Shown piece after piece: positions 1 to 5,420 of a stretch of DNA of 33,499 nucleotides. The position numbers and the translations under genes were made by a program. Numbering within the stretch: position 1 is the first letter of the stretch; every line of letters begins with the position of its first letter. Origin of the DNA: an uncultured Luminiphilus sp. (GTDB lineage: Bacteria > Pseudomonadota > Gammaproteobacteria > Pseudomonadales > Halieaceae). The stretch lies in assembly GCA_905478845.1 (NCBI GenBank), contig CAJQKG010000131.1, positions 1 to 33,499 on the forward strand. The letters are read 5' to 3'. The notes under the pieces were generated by a model. That model was given only the letters and a program-made list of their open reading frames with translations, was not told where the DNA came from and did not search any database.

Positions 1-66
1 TTCCACTTGCCACCACTCTTTGCTGCGGTCGCGGCGCTTGGGTTTGTCTTTTCCACCATAGAGTAG
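1..66 (+). CDS. Possible 3' end of a truncated membrane-protein CDS (…FHLPPLFAAVAALGFVFSTIE*)
   Basis: Frame 1 from base 1 is open to TAG at 64-66 and encodes a hydrophobic C-terminus. Only 21 codons are visible, so coding status is not secure. A minus-strand reading (MVEKTNPSAATAAKSGGKW…) starting at 59 is also possible. Confidence 0.3.
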   Translation, partial: FHLPPLFAAVAALGFVFSTIE

Positions 67-164
67 TCAACTATTCATTTGAGGAGCTAGCATACACACA
101 GGCGCACCGCCTTAACACCGTCTTGACGAGAAGATTTTGTCAGTAAACTCATTAACGCCGACGC

Positions 165-193
165 TGATCCGGCTCCCTGCGCGTCCCGTAACT
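165..193 (+). promoter_or_regulatory. Candidate ECF sigma (RpoE/ChrR-type, ECF11) promoter: TGATCC-N18-TAACT
   Basis: TGATCC at 165-170, exactly 18 nt, then TAACT at 189-193; lies 44 nt upstream of the probable GTG start at 238. Confidence 0.5.
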
Positions 194-237: not shown

Positions 238-1503
238 GTGAATATTGCAGTCATTGGAGCGGGCATCTCCGGGCTGGGATGCGCTTATCAGCTGGCCAAA
301 AGAGGCCATCGCGTCAACATTTTTGAGGCCCGAGACCGCATTGGTGGGCATACGGCTACCTACGACGTGCAGTTGGGCGCCCGGCGTTTCGCCATTGATA
401 CCGGCTTCATCGTCTACAACGACCGGAATTACCCCAATTTAGTCAGCCTTTTTGATGAGTTAGGCGTGACAACCCATGAAACATCGATGGGTTTCTCGGT
501 CTGTGACGAGGCGACTGGTCTAGAATACGCCGGTAATAATCTGAATACCCTGTTCGCTCAGCGAGGTAACTTACTGTCCCCCAGCTTCCTCGGCATGGTT
601 CGGGAGATTCTTCGCTTCAACAAGCTGGCGGTGAGTGACCTCGACGCAGGTCGCTTATCACCCAATCAGACGGTGGGCGACTACCTCTCCAATAACGGTT
701 TCAGCGATCATTTTGCCCGTCAATACTTGTTAGCGATGACATCAGCCATCTGGTCTGCAGACGCTGAGGATGCACAAGATTTTCCGCTGGAGTTTTTTGT
801 TCGTTTTTTCCGCAACCACGGCCTGCTGTCGTTAAAAGACCGCCCGCAATGGCGTGTGGTAGAGGGCGGAAGCCGTGAGTATCTTGCGCCGCTGACACAG
901 CGCGTCGCCGACTCAATCCGCACGCGGATGCCAGTGTCGCGCATCATGCGGCCGCCGGGCAAACCCGTCATGGTGCAATTTACCAACGGCCTCATGCGGG
1001 AGTTTGACGAGGTGGTTATCGCGACACATTCAGATGAAGCGCTGAAAATGCTAGGCGATCCCACGGATCATGAAAGAGCCGTTCTGGGCGCCATGCCTTA
1101 TCGCGAAAACGAAGTCATTTTGCACACCGATACTCGCCTGCTACCGAAGACTCAGCGAGCATGGTCTAGCTGGAACTATCGATTAAAACCTGAGAATGGT
1201 CGCGCCACCGTGACCTACAACATGAATATTTTGCAGGGCCTTGATGCGCCGGAAACGTTTTGTGTCACCTTGAACGACACCGCTTCCATCAATCCACATC
1301 GCATCCTAGGACGATTCAATTATGCGCATCCTCAGTTCACGCTCGAGGGCATGCAAGCACAGCAACGCTGGGCTGATATTAATGGGCATAATGGCACCTG
1401 GTTTTGCGGCGCTTATTGGCAAAATGGTTTCCACGAGGACGGCCTCGCTAGCGGCCTGCGCGTCGCAGAGAACCTGTGCTCCGCCCGCCAGATGGCGGCG
1501 TGA
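238..1503 (+). CDS. FAD-dependent amine oxidoreductase-like protein (NAD/FAD-binding)
   Basis: N-terminal Rossmann motif VIGAGISGLGCAYQLAKRGHRVNIFEARDRIGG. ORF opens at 217, but GTG 238 places the start at the dinucleotide-binding fold and has GGAG at 223-226 upstream. Confidence 0.88.
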   Translation: MNIAVIGAGISGLGCAYQLAKRGHRVNIFEARDRIGGHTATYDVQLGARRFAIDTGFIVYNDRNYPNLVSLFDELGVTTHETSMGFSVCDEATGLEYAGNNLNTLFAQRGNLLSPSFLGMVREILRFNKLAVSDLDAGRLSPNQTVGDYLSNNGFSDHFARQYLLAMTSAIWSADAEDAQDFPLEFFVRFFRNHGLLSLKDRPQWRVVEGGSREYLAPLTQRVADSIRTRMPVSRIMRPPGKPVMVQFTNGLMREFDEVVIATHSDEALKMLGDPTDHERAVLGAMPYRENEVILHTDTRLLPKTQRAWSSWNYRLKPENGRATVTYNMNILQGLDAPETFCVTLNDTASINPHRILGRFNYAHPQFTLEGMQAQQRWADINGHNGTWFCGAYWQNGFHEDGLASGLRVAENLCSARQMAA

Positions 1504-1532
1504 AAGCGGCACTGTATGAAAGCGGCACTGTA
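1501..1532 (+). repeat. Exact 16-bp tandem duplication (TGAAAGCGGCACTGTA x2)
   Basis: 1501-1516 and 1517-1532 are identical; they span the stop codon of the FAD gene and the start of DUF1365. Confidence 0.95.
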
Positions 1533-2262
1533 TAAGGGTACGCTCCACCACGCCCGTTACACCCCAAAGAAACACGCCTTCTCTTACAGCGTCTTTATGC
1601 CATTTGTGGAGCTGGGCTCGCTGGACCAGCTCACGCAAACCTTACCACTGTGGTCCAGCCAACGCTGGGCACCAGCTCGCTTTGTCAGAACTGATTTTCT
1701 CGGTGCAGCAGAGATACCCCTCATTGAGGCCGTTCGAGATCGCATCTTTGAAGAAACGGGTGAACGACACTCCGGACCCATTTACTTGCTCGCTAACTGG
1801 CGCTATTTTGGCTATCAGAACAATCCCATCGCGGTGTACTACTGTTACTGCGAACAGAATAAGAACCTGCAATATCTCGTTGCCGAGGTCACCAACACCC
1901 CTTGGGGTGAGCGCCATAGTTATGTTTTACCGGTGCCCGATGACAACGCACCGCTGACCACAGAGTTCGAAAAGAAACTGTATGTATCTCCTTTTAACCC
2001 GATGAATATGACCTATCGCTGGCAGAGCAATGCACCCGATGACGCGCTGCAGATTCAGATCACGCTCTTTGCCGCTGACCAGCGCGTCTTTGATGCCCAG
2101 CTGTCGCTCTCAGCCACGCCGCTAGATGCACGTTCAGCAATAAAAGCCATCGCTGCCTATCCCTTTATGACAATCAAAGTGGTCATTGCCATCTATTGGG
2201 AGGCCTTGTGCCTGTTTTTGAAAGGCGTCAGCCTGCATGCGCATCCAAAAAGATCCCATTAA
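1516..2262 (+). CDS. DUF1365 domain-containing protein
   Basis: ORF 248 aa, MKAALYKGTLHHARYTPKKHAFSYSVFMPFVEL…, typical of DUF1365, located between FAD oxidase and CFA synthase as in many proteobacteria. Confidence 0.88.
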   Translation: MKAALYKGTLHHARYTPKKHAFSYSVFMPFVELGSLDQLTQTLPLWSSQRWAPARFVRTDFLGAAEIPLIEAVRDRIFEETGERHSGPIYLLANWRYFGYQNNPIAVYYCYCEQNKNLQYLVAEVTNTPWGERHSYVLPVPDDNAPLTTEFEKKLYVSPFNPMNMTYRWQSNAPDDALQIQITLFAADQRVFDAQLSLSATPLDARSAIKAIAAYPFMTIKVVIAIYWEALCLFLKGVSLHAHPKRSH

Positions 2263-2301: not shown

Positions 2302-3558
2302 ATGAGCGAGTATCGCGTTAAGAACATCTCCAAGCTACCCATGCTCTTTGGGCCAAAGCAGGGGGGACTGGCAAGAACCCTGATACACACAGTACTCGGG
2401 AAGCTTCAGGTGGGCTCCCTGACAATGGTAGAGCAGGATGAGACACTGGTATTTGGGTCAAAAGCGGATCTTGCAGGCCCTCATGCTGAAGTGCATGTTC
2501 ACGATCTTGACCTCTACCGACGTATCCTGACCGGCGGCAGCATCGCCGCAGGAGAAACCTTCATCGAAGGCCTGTGGAGTAGCCCTAACCTGACCGCGGT
2601 CACTCGCGCCTTTAGCGGCAATATGGCGATGCTCGAGGCGATGTCTGATCAACAAAATTGGCTGCTCCGCCTCGCCCTGAAAACAACGCACTGGGGCCGC
2701 AGGAATACGGCTTCCCGCTCGCGGGAGAATATTGCTGCGCATTACGATCTGGGAAACGCATTTTTTTCACTGTTCCTCGACCCTAGCATGATGTATTCCG
2801 CCGCCGTATTCCCAACACCAGAAAGTGATCTGGCGGCCGCGTCGCAACACAAGCTGCAGCTCATCTGTGAAGATCTAGAACTGAAACCGGAGGACCACCT
2901 CGTCGAAATTGGAACCGGCTGGGGCGGCATGGCGATCTACGCGGCAGAGCATTATCACTGTCGCGTCACCACCACCACTATTTCCAAAGAGCAGTTTGAC
3001 TACACCGTAAAGGCTGTTGAAAAGCGCGGCTTACAGGATCGCATCACGGTTCTCTTTGATGATTATCGAGACCTTGAGGGGCAATTTGATAAATTGGTAT
3101 CTATTGAAATGATCGAAGCAGTGGGGCATCAGTTCTACGACACTTATTTTAGTACGCTGAGTAGACTGTTAAAGCCCGATGGCAAAGCCGTTATTCAGTC
3201 GATTACGATGACCGACCAACGCTATGAGCAAGCCCGGGATTCGGTTGATTTTATCAAGCGATATATCTTTCCCGGCGGCTGCCTACCGTCACTCAGCGTC
3301 ATCAGCAATGCATTGGCCAACGTCACAGATATGCAACTCAGTGGTTTACGCGATATCACTCGTGACTACGCCGATACCCTACAAGATTGGCATGACACTT
3401 TTCTCAGTCAGCTTGATCAAGTTCGCGCAATGGGCTTTGATGACCAGTTCATCCGCATGTGGCGATATTATTTGAGCTACTGTGAGGGAGGCTTTCGAGA
3501 GCGTATTATCGGCACCTACCAAATCACGATGACGAAACCTTATTATCGACCTCACTGA
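2302..3558 (+). CDS. Cyclopropane-fatty-acyl-phospholipid synthase family SAM-dependent methyltransferase
   Basis: 418 aa; NIAAHYDLGNAFFSLFLDPSMMYSAAVF, VEIGTGWGGMAIYAAEHY and YIFPGGCLPS motifs; GAGGG SD-like sequence upstream of ATG. Confidence 0.93.
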   Translation: MSEYRVKNISKLPMLFGPKQGGLARTLIHTVLGKLQVGSLTMVEQDETLVFGSKADLAGPHAEVHVHDLDLYRRILTGGSIAAGETFIEGLWSSPNLTAVTRAFSGNMAMLEAMSDQQNWLLRLALKTTHWGRRNTASRSRENIAAHYDLGNAFFSLFLDPSMMYSAAVFPTPESDLAAASQHKLQLICEDLELKPEDHLVEIGTGWGGMAIYAAEHYHCRVTTTTISKEQFDYTVKAVEKRGLQDRITVLFDDYRDLEGQFDKLVSIEMIEAVGHQFYDTYFSTLSRLLKPDGKAVIQSITMTDQRYEQARDSVDFIKRYIFPGGCLPSLSVISNALANVTDMQLSGLRDITRDYADTLQDWHDTFLSQLDQVRAMGFDDQFIRMWRYYLSYCEGGFRERIIGTYQITMTKPYYRPH

Positions 3559-3567
3559 CCAGACTGT

Positions 3568-4986
3568 ATGTTGCTGTCGCTAGCACCGATTTTATTGCTC
3601 GTAGCGTTGCTGTCTGCGTCGGTCGCCCTGTTTGGCTCTGATGCTTCCTATGGCCCCAATCAGGTAGCACTCGTTGTTGCAGCCGCAGCGACCATGCTGG
3701 TCGGATGGTGGCGAGGCATGAGCTGGCAGCAAATTCAAGACGGTATGGTCAGTGCCATTACGGTCTCGATTATGCCTATGATGATCCTGCTCTCCGTCGG
3801 CGCTTTAATCGGTAGCTGGATTATCAGTGGCACCGTACCGGGCATGATTTTTTACGGCCTACAATTGCTCAATCCCGATATCTTCTATGCTGCCTCGGCT
3901 GTTATTTGTGCGCTAGCATCATTGAGTCTGGGCAGTTCATGGACGGTCGCCGGGACACTGGGTATTGGTCTCATGGGTATCGCGACGACTTATGGGTTAT
4001 CCCCTGCCATTACCGCGGGCGCTATTATCTCTGGTGCATATTTCGGCGATAAGCTCTCGCCCCTTTCGGATACGACCAATCTTGCCGCAGCGGCCGTCGG
4101 CGTCGACCTGTTCGAGCATATTAAAAATATGCTGTGGACGACTTTGCCGGCGTTTGCCTTGGCCTTGCTCTTTTTTGCCGCCATTGGCAGCGAGGGCGCG
4201 GCCGCACCCGATGACATCACCCGCATTCGAGCCGCACTATCTGACCAATTCGCCATCACCCCTTGGGTGCTGTCGCCTTTGGTACTGATGCTGGCGATGA
4301 TTTACTTCAAGATCCCGGCCTACCCTGCCATTTTACTGTGTACCTTTTGTGGTGCCGCTTATGGGGCGCTTTTTCAGCCCGAGGTGGTTCGCAGCATGGC
4401 CCTGACCGCACACCCGGAATCTCCCGCACCGCTGTTACAGGGGCTGTGGATGGCACTCTTCTCGGGCTACCAATCACCGATTGGCGCTGATCAATTAAGC
4501 CAATTGCTCGATAAGGGCGGCTTGGCCAGCATGCTCAATACCATCTTCTTGATTCTTACTGCGATGACCTTTGGCGGGCTGCTCGATAGCACCGGTATTT
4601 TACGACAGCTGCTCGACTGGGTTTTAAAAGGCGTGAAGCGCACAGGTGATCTGATACTGGCAACGGTGGGAGGCGGCATCATCACCAATATTTTAGCGGC
4701 AGATCAATTTCTCGCCATCACCTTACCGGGGCGATTGTTTATCTCTGCGTACGACGATCGCGGACTGAGCCGTCTGAGCTTATCGAGAACACTCGAGGAC
4801 TCAGCAACACTCACCTCCGTGCTGGTGCCCTGGAATACTTGTGGTGCTTTTATGGCGGCAACACTGGGGGTGGCTACCTTCGACTACGCCCCCTATGCGC
4901 TGTTCAATCTGATCTGTCCGGTCCTGGCGATTCTTTTTGGCTACCTGATGATTGCCCAGCCACAGCGGACCACTGTGAGCGTATGA
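3568..4986 (+). CDS. nhaC: Na+/H+ antiporter, NhaC family
   Basis: 472 aa polytopic protein; LSLGSSWTVAGTLGIGLMGIA, AGAIISGAYFGDKLSPLSDTTNLAAAAVGVDLFEHI motifs typical of NhaC. Confidence 0.88.
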   Translation: MLLSLAPILLLVALLSASVALFGSDASYGPNQVALVVAAAATMLVGWWRGMSWQQIQDGMVSAITVSIMPMMILLSVGALIGSWIISGTVPGMIFYGLQLLNPDIFYAASAVICALASLSLGSSWTVAGTLGIGLMGIATTYGLSPAITAGAIISGAYFGDKLSPLSDTTNLAAAAVGVDLFEHIKNMLWTTLPAFALALLFFAAIGSEGAAAPDDITRIRAALSDQFAITPWVLSPLVLMLAMIYFKIPAYPAILLCTFCGAAYGALFQPEVVRSMALTAHPESPAPLLQGLWMALFSGYQSPIGADQLSQLLDKGGLASMLNTIFLILTAMTFGGLLDSTGILRQLLDWVLKGVKRTGDLILATVGGGIITNILAADQFLAITLPGRLFISAYDDRGLSRLSLSRTLEDSATLTSVLVPWNTCGAFMAATLGVATFDYAPYALFNLICPVLAILFGYLMIAQPQRTTVSV

Positions 4987-5420
4987 ACTGGGATTATGAT
5001 CATCCGTTCACGCTCGCAGTGACCGTTCAACCACAGCACATCGACGCACTCGACCACACCCGTAATACCCATTACGTCGAATGGTGCATGGAAGCCGCCT
5101 GGGCCCATACCTCAGCTCTGGGGTTGGGACCCGAGGATTATCGGCGACTCGACCGCGCAATGGCGCTGACACATGCTGAGTATGATTATCTCAAGGCCAC
5201 ACGGTCGGGGGATAAACTACTCGTGGGCACCTGGATTACGGAATGGGTCGGCAAAATCAAAATGATTCGCCGACTTCAAATTCACTGCCAGCGCTCTGGC
5301 GATACGGTTTTTCGAGGCCACTTGGAATTCGTCTGTATCGAAATTTCCACGGGGCTGCCAAAAAGACCGCCTAAAGCATTTGTCGAGTTGTATGGGCAAG
5401 CTTTGATCAGCAATACGTAA
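4983..5420 (+). CDS. Acyl-CoA thioesterase (hotdog-fold, 4HBT/YbgC-like)
   Basis: MNWDYDHPFTLAVTVQPQHIDALDHTRNTHYVEWCMEAAWAHT…; ATGA overlap (4983-4986) with the nhaC stop. The longer ORF from 4839 runs antiparsimoniously inside nhaC. Confidence 0.85.
   Translation: MNWDYDHPFTLAVTVQPQHIDALDHTRNTHYVEWCMEAAWAHTSALGLGPEDYRRLDRAMALTHAEYDYLKATRSGDKLLVGTWITEWVGKIKMIRRLQIHCQRSGDTVFRGHLEFVCIEISTGLPKRPPKAFVELYGQALISNT

Follow-up and report, generated by a model that had tools for sequence, protein, structure and literature searches.

The left end of this contig raises the question of whether a short promoter-like sequence in front of a cluster of lipid genes in an uncultured Luminiphilus is a genuine recognition site for an ECF11 sigma factor of the RpoE/ChrR type, and, if it is, what the genes behind it might make and which signal they might answer. 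The window (the whole stretch of DNA that was analysed, 33,499 nucleotides) is the entire contig C131 of a draft genome, referred to here as G000, and the FAD protein encoded near its left end is 96% identical to those of the closest named relatives (uncultured Luminiphilus/Halieaceae). An earlier note on this DNA had described TGATCC, exactly 18 nt, and TAACT, ending 44 nt before a GTG start, and this layout can be read directly at positions 165-170, 189-193 and 238 of the plus strand; relatives have ATG or GTG at the place aligned with GTG 238. The ECF11-type -35 element at 165 (plus strand) stands as described, but TAACT is not the -10 element, which is instead CGTAAC at 187-192. The parts of the predicted promoter are the following.

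165-170, plus strand: TGATCC, predicted -35 element for the ECF11 (RpoE/ChrR) sigma factor, unchanged across 24 unique Luminiphilus sequences
171-186, plus strand: spacer of 16 nt, fixed in length and free in sequence (0.51 bits per base, versus 2.0 in the motif)
187-192, plus strand: CGTAAC, -10 element (CGTA invariant), a consensus documented in PMC5507510, PMC4336711 and PMC5241685

The string TGATCC-N16-CGTAAC agrees fully with the ECF11 (RpoE/ChrR) consensus published for gammaproteobacteria, with both the TGATCC of the -35 region and the CGTA of the -10 region (187-190) present at the spacing N16. Promoters of this class are TGATCC-N16-CGTA in Pseudomonas syringae, as derived from ChIP-seq (PMC5507510), TGATCC followed by CGTATT or CGTAAT in Shewanella, where the transcription starts were mapped (PMC4336711), and TGATC-N16-18-CGTAW in Vibrio (PMC5241685). 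Transcription from the site in the window is predicted to begin near 198-200, and would lead into the genes listed here.

238-1503, plus strand: FAD-dependent protein of the amine-oxidase family, an RSP_1091/UfaD-like fatty acyl desaturase (PF01593, E 1.5e-29; NAD_binding_8)
1516-2262, plus strand: DUF1365 protein, RSP_1090/UfaO-like (PF07103, E 5.2e-75)
2302-3558, plus strand: SAM methyltransferase of the CFA family, probably UfaM-like (PF02353, E 6.7e-86)
3568-4986, plus strand: NhaC-type Na+/H+ antiporter, gene 4 of the predicted operon (TIGR00931, 395.6 bits; cut-off 370)
4983-5420, plus strand: 4HBT-type thioesterase, last gene of the predicted operon (PF13279, searched with the frame 4839-5420; start chosen from the sequence)

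These genes are separated by 12 nt (FAD to DUF1365), 39 nt (DUF1365 to the methyltransferase) and 9 nt (methyltransferase to nhaC), and the thioesterase gene overlaps the nhaC stop by 4 nt. The three enzyme types of the furan fatty acid pathway, UfaM, UfaD and UfaO, are thus found together in one predicted operon. In Rhodobacter sphaeroides the corresponding proteins of furan fatty acid synthesis are RSP_1091 (UfaD), RSP_1090 (UfaO, a DUF1365 protein) and RSP_2144 (UfaM), and in Rhodopseudomonas palustris the production of furan fatty acids was demonstrated for the genes RPA2571-2569, ufaD-ufaO-ufaM (PMC7380195). It might be argued that the third gene of the Luminiphilus cluster encodes an ordinary cyclopropane synthase, with the operon making cyclopropane lipids, as would fit the strong match of its product to the CMAS family (E 6.7e-86); this is unlikely in our judgement, since the protein reaches none of the cut-offs of the three canonical CFA synthase models (286.6 against 400, 271.4 against 600 and 230.7 against 650) and the order FAD-DUF1365-methyltransferase is that of ufaD-ufaO-ufaM in R. 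palustris. The designation "CFA" in the earlier note holds for the family; the enzyme itself is probably UfaM-like.

The sigma factor that would read the promoter had been placed by the same note outside the window. Its gene in fact begins inside, divergently from the operon and across an intergenic region of 178 nt.

1-59, minus strand: start (19 codons) of the divergent ECF11 sigma gene (rpoE-like), MVEKTNPSAATAAKSGGKW, cut by the contig end and aligned with L068/L097, MVEKTTQSAAPPAQNNGKW
89-97, minus strand: GTGTATGCT, a conserved element on the rpoE side and a candidate non-ECF11 -10 or operator, GTGTATNCT in most Luminiphilus

A complete orthologue of this sigma factor, taken from L068, finds the R. 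sphaeroides SigE structure 2Q1Z as its best match (E 1.1e-32), with the next best solved sigma factor at 1.2e-11. Most of the ECF11 sigma gene is absent from the assembly, and a search of the genome with the whole sigma protein returned only a sigma factor on contig C197 (28%), which we rejected as an ECF11 member because of its rpoE-rseA-rseB-rseC neighbourhood. The proposed search for rpoE-chrR in the rest of the genome was nevertheless productive, in that it recovered, in addition to the sigma start at window position 59 (minus strand), the C-terminal part of ChrR (G000:C183:4-255). This fragment matches TIGR02451 over positions 132-215 with 105.1 bits (E 1.2e-29) and falls below the cut-off of 124.5, with contig C183 beginning inside the gene; among relatives the model is found above cut-off in 42 of 58 genomes. 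On C183 the truncated chrR is followed by pntA, and those close relatives with enough flanking sequence have the order pntA-chrR-rpoE-intergenic region-FAD-DUF1365-CFA. From this synteny and the start of C183 within chrR, we infer that ~0.95 kb (a size taken from L097), holding the remainder of rpoE-chrR, is missing between C183 and C131.

By homology, the reading of this locus as a membrane-lipid response to light stress is well founded, and the site very probably does serve to switch on membrane-lipid genes under singlet oxygen generated by light and oxygen. In the scheme that we propose, positions 165-192 would be the promoter of a predicted five-gene operon (ufaD-ufaO-ufaM-like genes, nhaC and the thioesterase gene), and the sigma factor serving it would be the ECF11 protein encoded divergently on the far side of the 178-nt intergenic region. 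In the unstressed cell ChrR would hold the sigma factor, according to the mechanism published for relatives of this system (R. sphaeroides). Singlet oxygen, presumably formed in this host by bacteriochlorophyll or other photosensitisers, would bring about the turnover or loss of ChrR, and the freed sigma factor together with RNA polymerase would recognize TGATCC-N16-CGTA, so that the lipid enzymes are made. Going by the functions of their published relatives, these enzymes would methylate and desaturate cis-vaccenate and insert oxygen, giving a furan fatty acid, which may be consumed by singlet oxygen and may also be required for ChrR turnover. In mutants from which the furan genes are missing, the rise of sigma-E activity in response to singlet oxygen is impaired (PMC6852236).

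The main signal at an ECF11 promoter could conceivably be something other than singlet oxygen, such as organic peroxides, blue light acting in another way or a different stress, and there are precedents in the links of Shewanella RpoE2 to H2O2 and paraquat and of the Vibrio cholerae system to blue light, and in the increase of R. sphaeroides sigma-E activity by t-BOOH. We regard this as rather improbable here, because the bacteriochlorophyll reaction centre of the host is a major source of singlet oxygen and because the furan lipid genes needed for the singlet-oxygen branch of the response are part of the operon. The host carries pufL and pufM on contig C230 and ppsR on C35, from which it can be classed as an aerobic anoxygenic phototroph, consistent with what is known of Luminiphilus syltensis (PMC3679898).

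How far the promoter itself can be trusted depends on conservation. The loose motif, TGATCC-N17..19-TAA, occurs twice in the window against an expectation of 0.45, a count reached by 10 of 100 shuffles, and its second match, at 3782, falls within the nhaC gene and lacks CGTA; the loose motif by itself is weak evidence. For the strict motif, TGATCC-N16-CGTA, only ~0.00014 matches are expected on the plus strand of the 178-bp intergenic region, and the genome of 2.54 Mb as a whole has 5 matches with 4.7 expected by chance. Genome-wide counting thus gives no support, and it is the association with genes and the conservation of the site that do so. Among the matches in the genome, one on C102 was rejected as a promoter since it lies within an open frame of 412 codons and was judged coding, and one on C251 could not be dismissed as coding, being upstream of a DUF3429 gene; contig C264 ends with 40 nt that are repeated in the start of C251 (~190-230), a likely assembly duplicate, so that two of the strict matches are probably one. 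Across 37 genomes of the genus the spacing N16 gives 113 matches, compared with 68 for the control spacing N17. In an alignment that was anchored on the motif, the 34 Luminiphilus intergenic regions (24 of them unique) whose FAD proteins are at least 66% identical keep all ten motif bases and the spacing letter for letter, with 2.0 bits per base in both boxes of the unique sequences, as against 0.51 for the spacer and 0.33-0.38 for the flanking bases. A chance likeness to the consensus, with some other promoter driving the genes, might account for a loose motif count reached in 10% of shuffles and for a strict motif that is not enriched genome-wide, but is very hard to reconcile with ten bases and a spacing that are invariant in 24 unique sequences despite diverged spacers and flanks, at a site adjoining the cognate sigma gene. 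We are accordingly highly confident that 165-192 is a real ECF11 promoter, as the predicted site is conserved before the orthologous Luminiphilus clusters, agrees with the consensus of P. syringae, Shewanella and Vibrio and belongs to a genome with a ChrR gene; in this, the central proposal of the earlier note holds.

The divergent side of the same intergenic region might have had a different history. We placed promoter states (which allow TGAT[CT][CTA] and N15-17) on a tree of 61 FAD proteins. Among other Halieaceae the ECF11 motif is found on both the rpoE and the operon sides in 22 of 24 rows, as it is in genomes from other families of the order (for example G043 and G037), and two promoters therefore seem to be the ancestral state. 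In all window-type and 67%-clade Luminiphilus the motif is on the operon side only, and the rpoE side mostly has GTGTATNCT instead, which in most Luminiphilus intergenic regions lies ~30-40 nt before the rpoE start. An ECF11 motif on the rpoE side, as would serve the autoregulation that is usual in (though not defining of) ECF11 systems, was seen in no Luminiphilus row, and a search for a sigma-70 promoter on that side gave nothing over threshold. The apparent loss of the ECF11 motif from the divergent rpoE promoter throughout Luminiphilus is a new observation.

A further change is indicated in a sister clade of 13 rows (clade B, support 100/100), in which no ECF11 motif is found before the FAD-DUF1365-CFA operon. 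All 13 rows (L088-L096, L123, L124, L126, L131) have TGT-N12-ACA at -74 to -86 of the FAD gene, a pattern known as the PpsR/CrtJ site (PMC4452267). For stretches of the photosynthesis cluster in three Luminiphilus genomes, the spacer of 12 gives 15 intergenic matches compared with 1-8 for other spacers. The clade B ppsR genes have TGATC[CT]-N16-CGTA ~185-200 nt before the ppsR domain in 10 of the 10 genes examined (L297-L299, L311-L317), whereas outside clade B an ECF11-like motif (TGATCC) is present in one of 21 (G004, L296) and absent in the other 20. At the level of sequence patterns, then, a PpsR-type site would have replaced the ECF11 motif of the operon in clade B and an ECF11-like motif would stand before ppsR, which is also new.

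The published ECF11 core regulon consists of rpoE-chrR, phrB, cfaS and orthologues of RSP_1087, 1088, 1090 and 1091. The 1091-, 1090- and cfaS-type members are in the operon described here; DUF3833-like and DUF3429 genes carry the motif in relatives, and DUF3429 does so in the genome under study (G000:C251:193). With variable spacers allowed, a conserved ECF11 motif precedes DUF3429, or a DUF3833-like lipoprotein gene plus DUF3429, at 25 of 27 anchored Luminiphilus loci. The lipoprotein, assigned to DUF3833 by eye, is likely the counterpart of RSP_1088; its gene lies between promoter and DUF3429 in clades B and C and is missing from that place in the present genome (L344 versus L333 and L336). 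A conserved leader of 77-109 nt separates the motif from these genes in 25 unique sequences (L325-L354; here L344, G000:C251 ~219-310), and contains a hairpin with the invariant loop UCCCCC (CCATCT-TCCCCC-AGRTGG) followed by a GC-rich terminator with a T run. It is a candidate for an ECF11-driven small RNA or attenuator. An Rfam search of the leader RNA gave no family at gathering score, and the sub-threshold matches, including one to SorX (24.9 of 46.6 bits), were put down to generic terminator hairpins. The motif, with a variable spacer, is also seen ~174 nt before petA (Rieske, read from the sequence) in three sister-clade genomes (L290, L291, L292), and in its strict form ~200 nt before a gene for a long AMP-ligase (acyl-CoA synthetase-like, read from the sequence) in the sister clade (L285-L289, L293) and in the present genome (L269, G000:C192, 1118-1143, minus strand). 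The AMP-ligase spacer is nearly fixed, GGTAATAGTTGG, which suggests a further constraint. Photolyase, which the earlier note gave as a member of the R. sphaeroides regulon, does not appear to belong to the one predicted here, as no strict motif was found at the photolyase/cryptochrome loci of 12 Luminiphilus genomes.

Considered jointly, these patterns might reflect a stepwise rewiring in which rpoE-chrR autoregulation was lost first and the furan-lipid operon of clade B then passed from direct ECF11 control to a PpsR-type operator, with an ECF11-like motif standing before ppsR and, as an additional element, an ECF11-driven small RNA before the DUF3833-like/DUF3429 genes; we hold this tentatively and with slightly more doubt than belief. 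The product of ppsR is a repressor of photosynthesis genes, and such a rewiring, if true, would give singlet-oxygen sensing a direct connection to the regulation of the photosynthetic apparatus. Across the clades one promoter is retained, a second lost and a third exchanged, a natural series of living relatives in which one could test what positive autoregulation is worth to an anti-sigma circuit. The OM60/NOR5 clade, to which Luminiphilus belongs, and the Roseobacter lineage dominate the marine aerobic phototrophs (PMC3666943). In the literature surveyed we found no description of how Luminiphilus (OM60/NOR5) handles singlet oxygen, and the locus offers a testable regulon for this.

Among known systems, S. 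oneidensis RpoE2-ChrR, P. syringae PSPTO_1043/1042 and V. cholerae SigE/ChrR likewise have promoters of the TGATCC-N16-CGTA type and cfa-type regulon genes. The motif precedes rpoE itself in Shewanella, P. syringae and Vibrio, and photolyase is in the regulons of Shewanella and P. syringae, neither of which was seen in Luminiphilus. Other Halieaceae (Parahaliea, Halioglobus, Pseudohaliea, Kineobactrum and Seongchinamella) share the divergent rpoE-chrR / FAD-DUF1365-CFA locus and have ECF11 motifs on both sides, whereas Luminiphilus has them on the operon side only or, in one clade, on neither. The R. palustris genes RPA2571-2569 encode the same three enzymes in an order identical to that of the Luminiphilus operon, and we know of no nhaC or thioesterase gene associated with them. 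With R. sphaeroides sigma-E/ChrR (RSP_1092/RSP_1093) and its RSP_1091-1087 operon, which also adjoins rpoE as the locus numbers suggest, Luminiphilus has in common the ECF11 sigma factor, ChrR, the promoter class and the FAD and DUF1365 genes; it differs in having ufaM in the same operon, followed by nhaC and the thioesterase gene, in having the lipoprotein gene elsewhere (clades B and C) and in an rpoE gene without the ECF11 motif. Judging from the sequences compared, the switch is of a kind already known, and its wiring in Luminiphilus appears to have changed in unusual ways.
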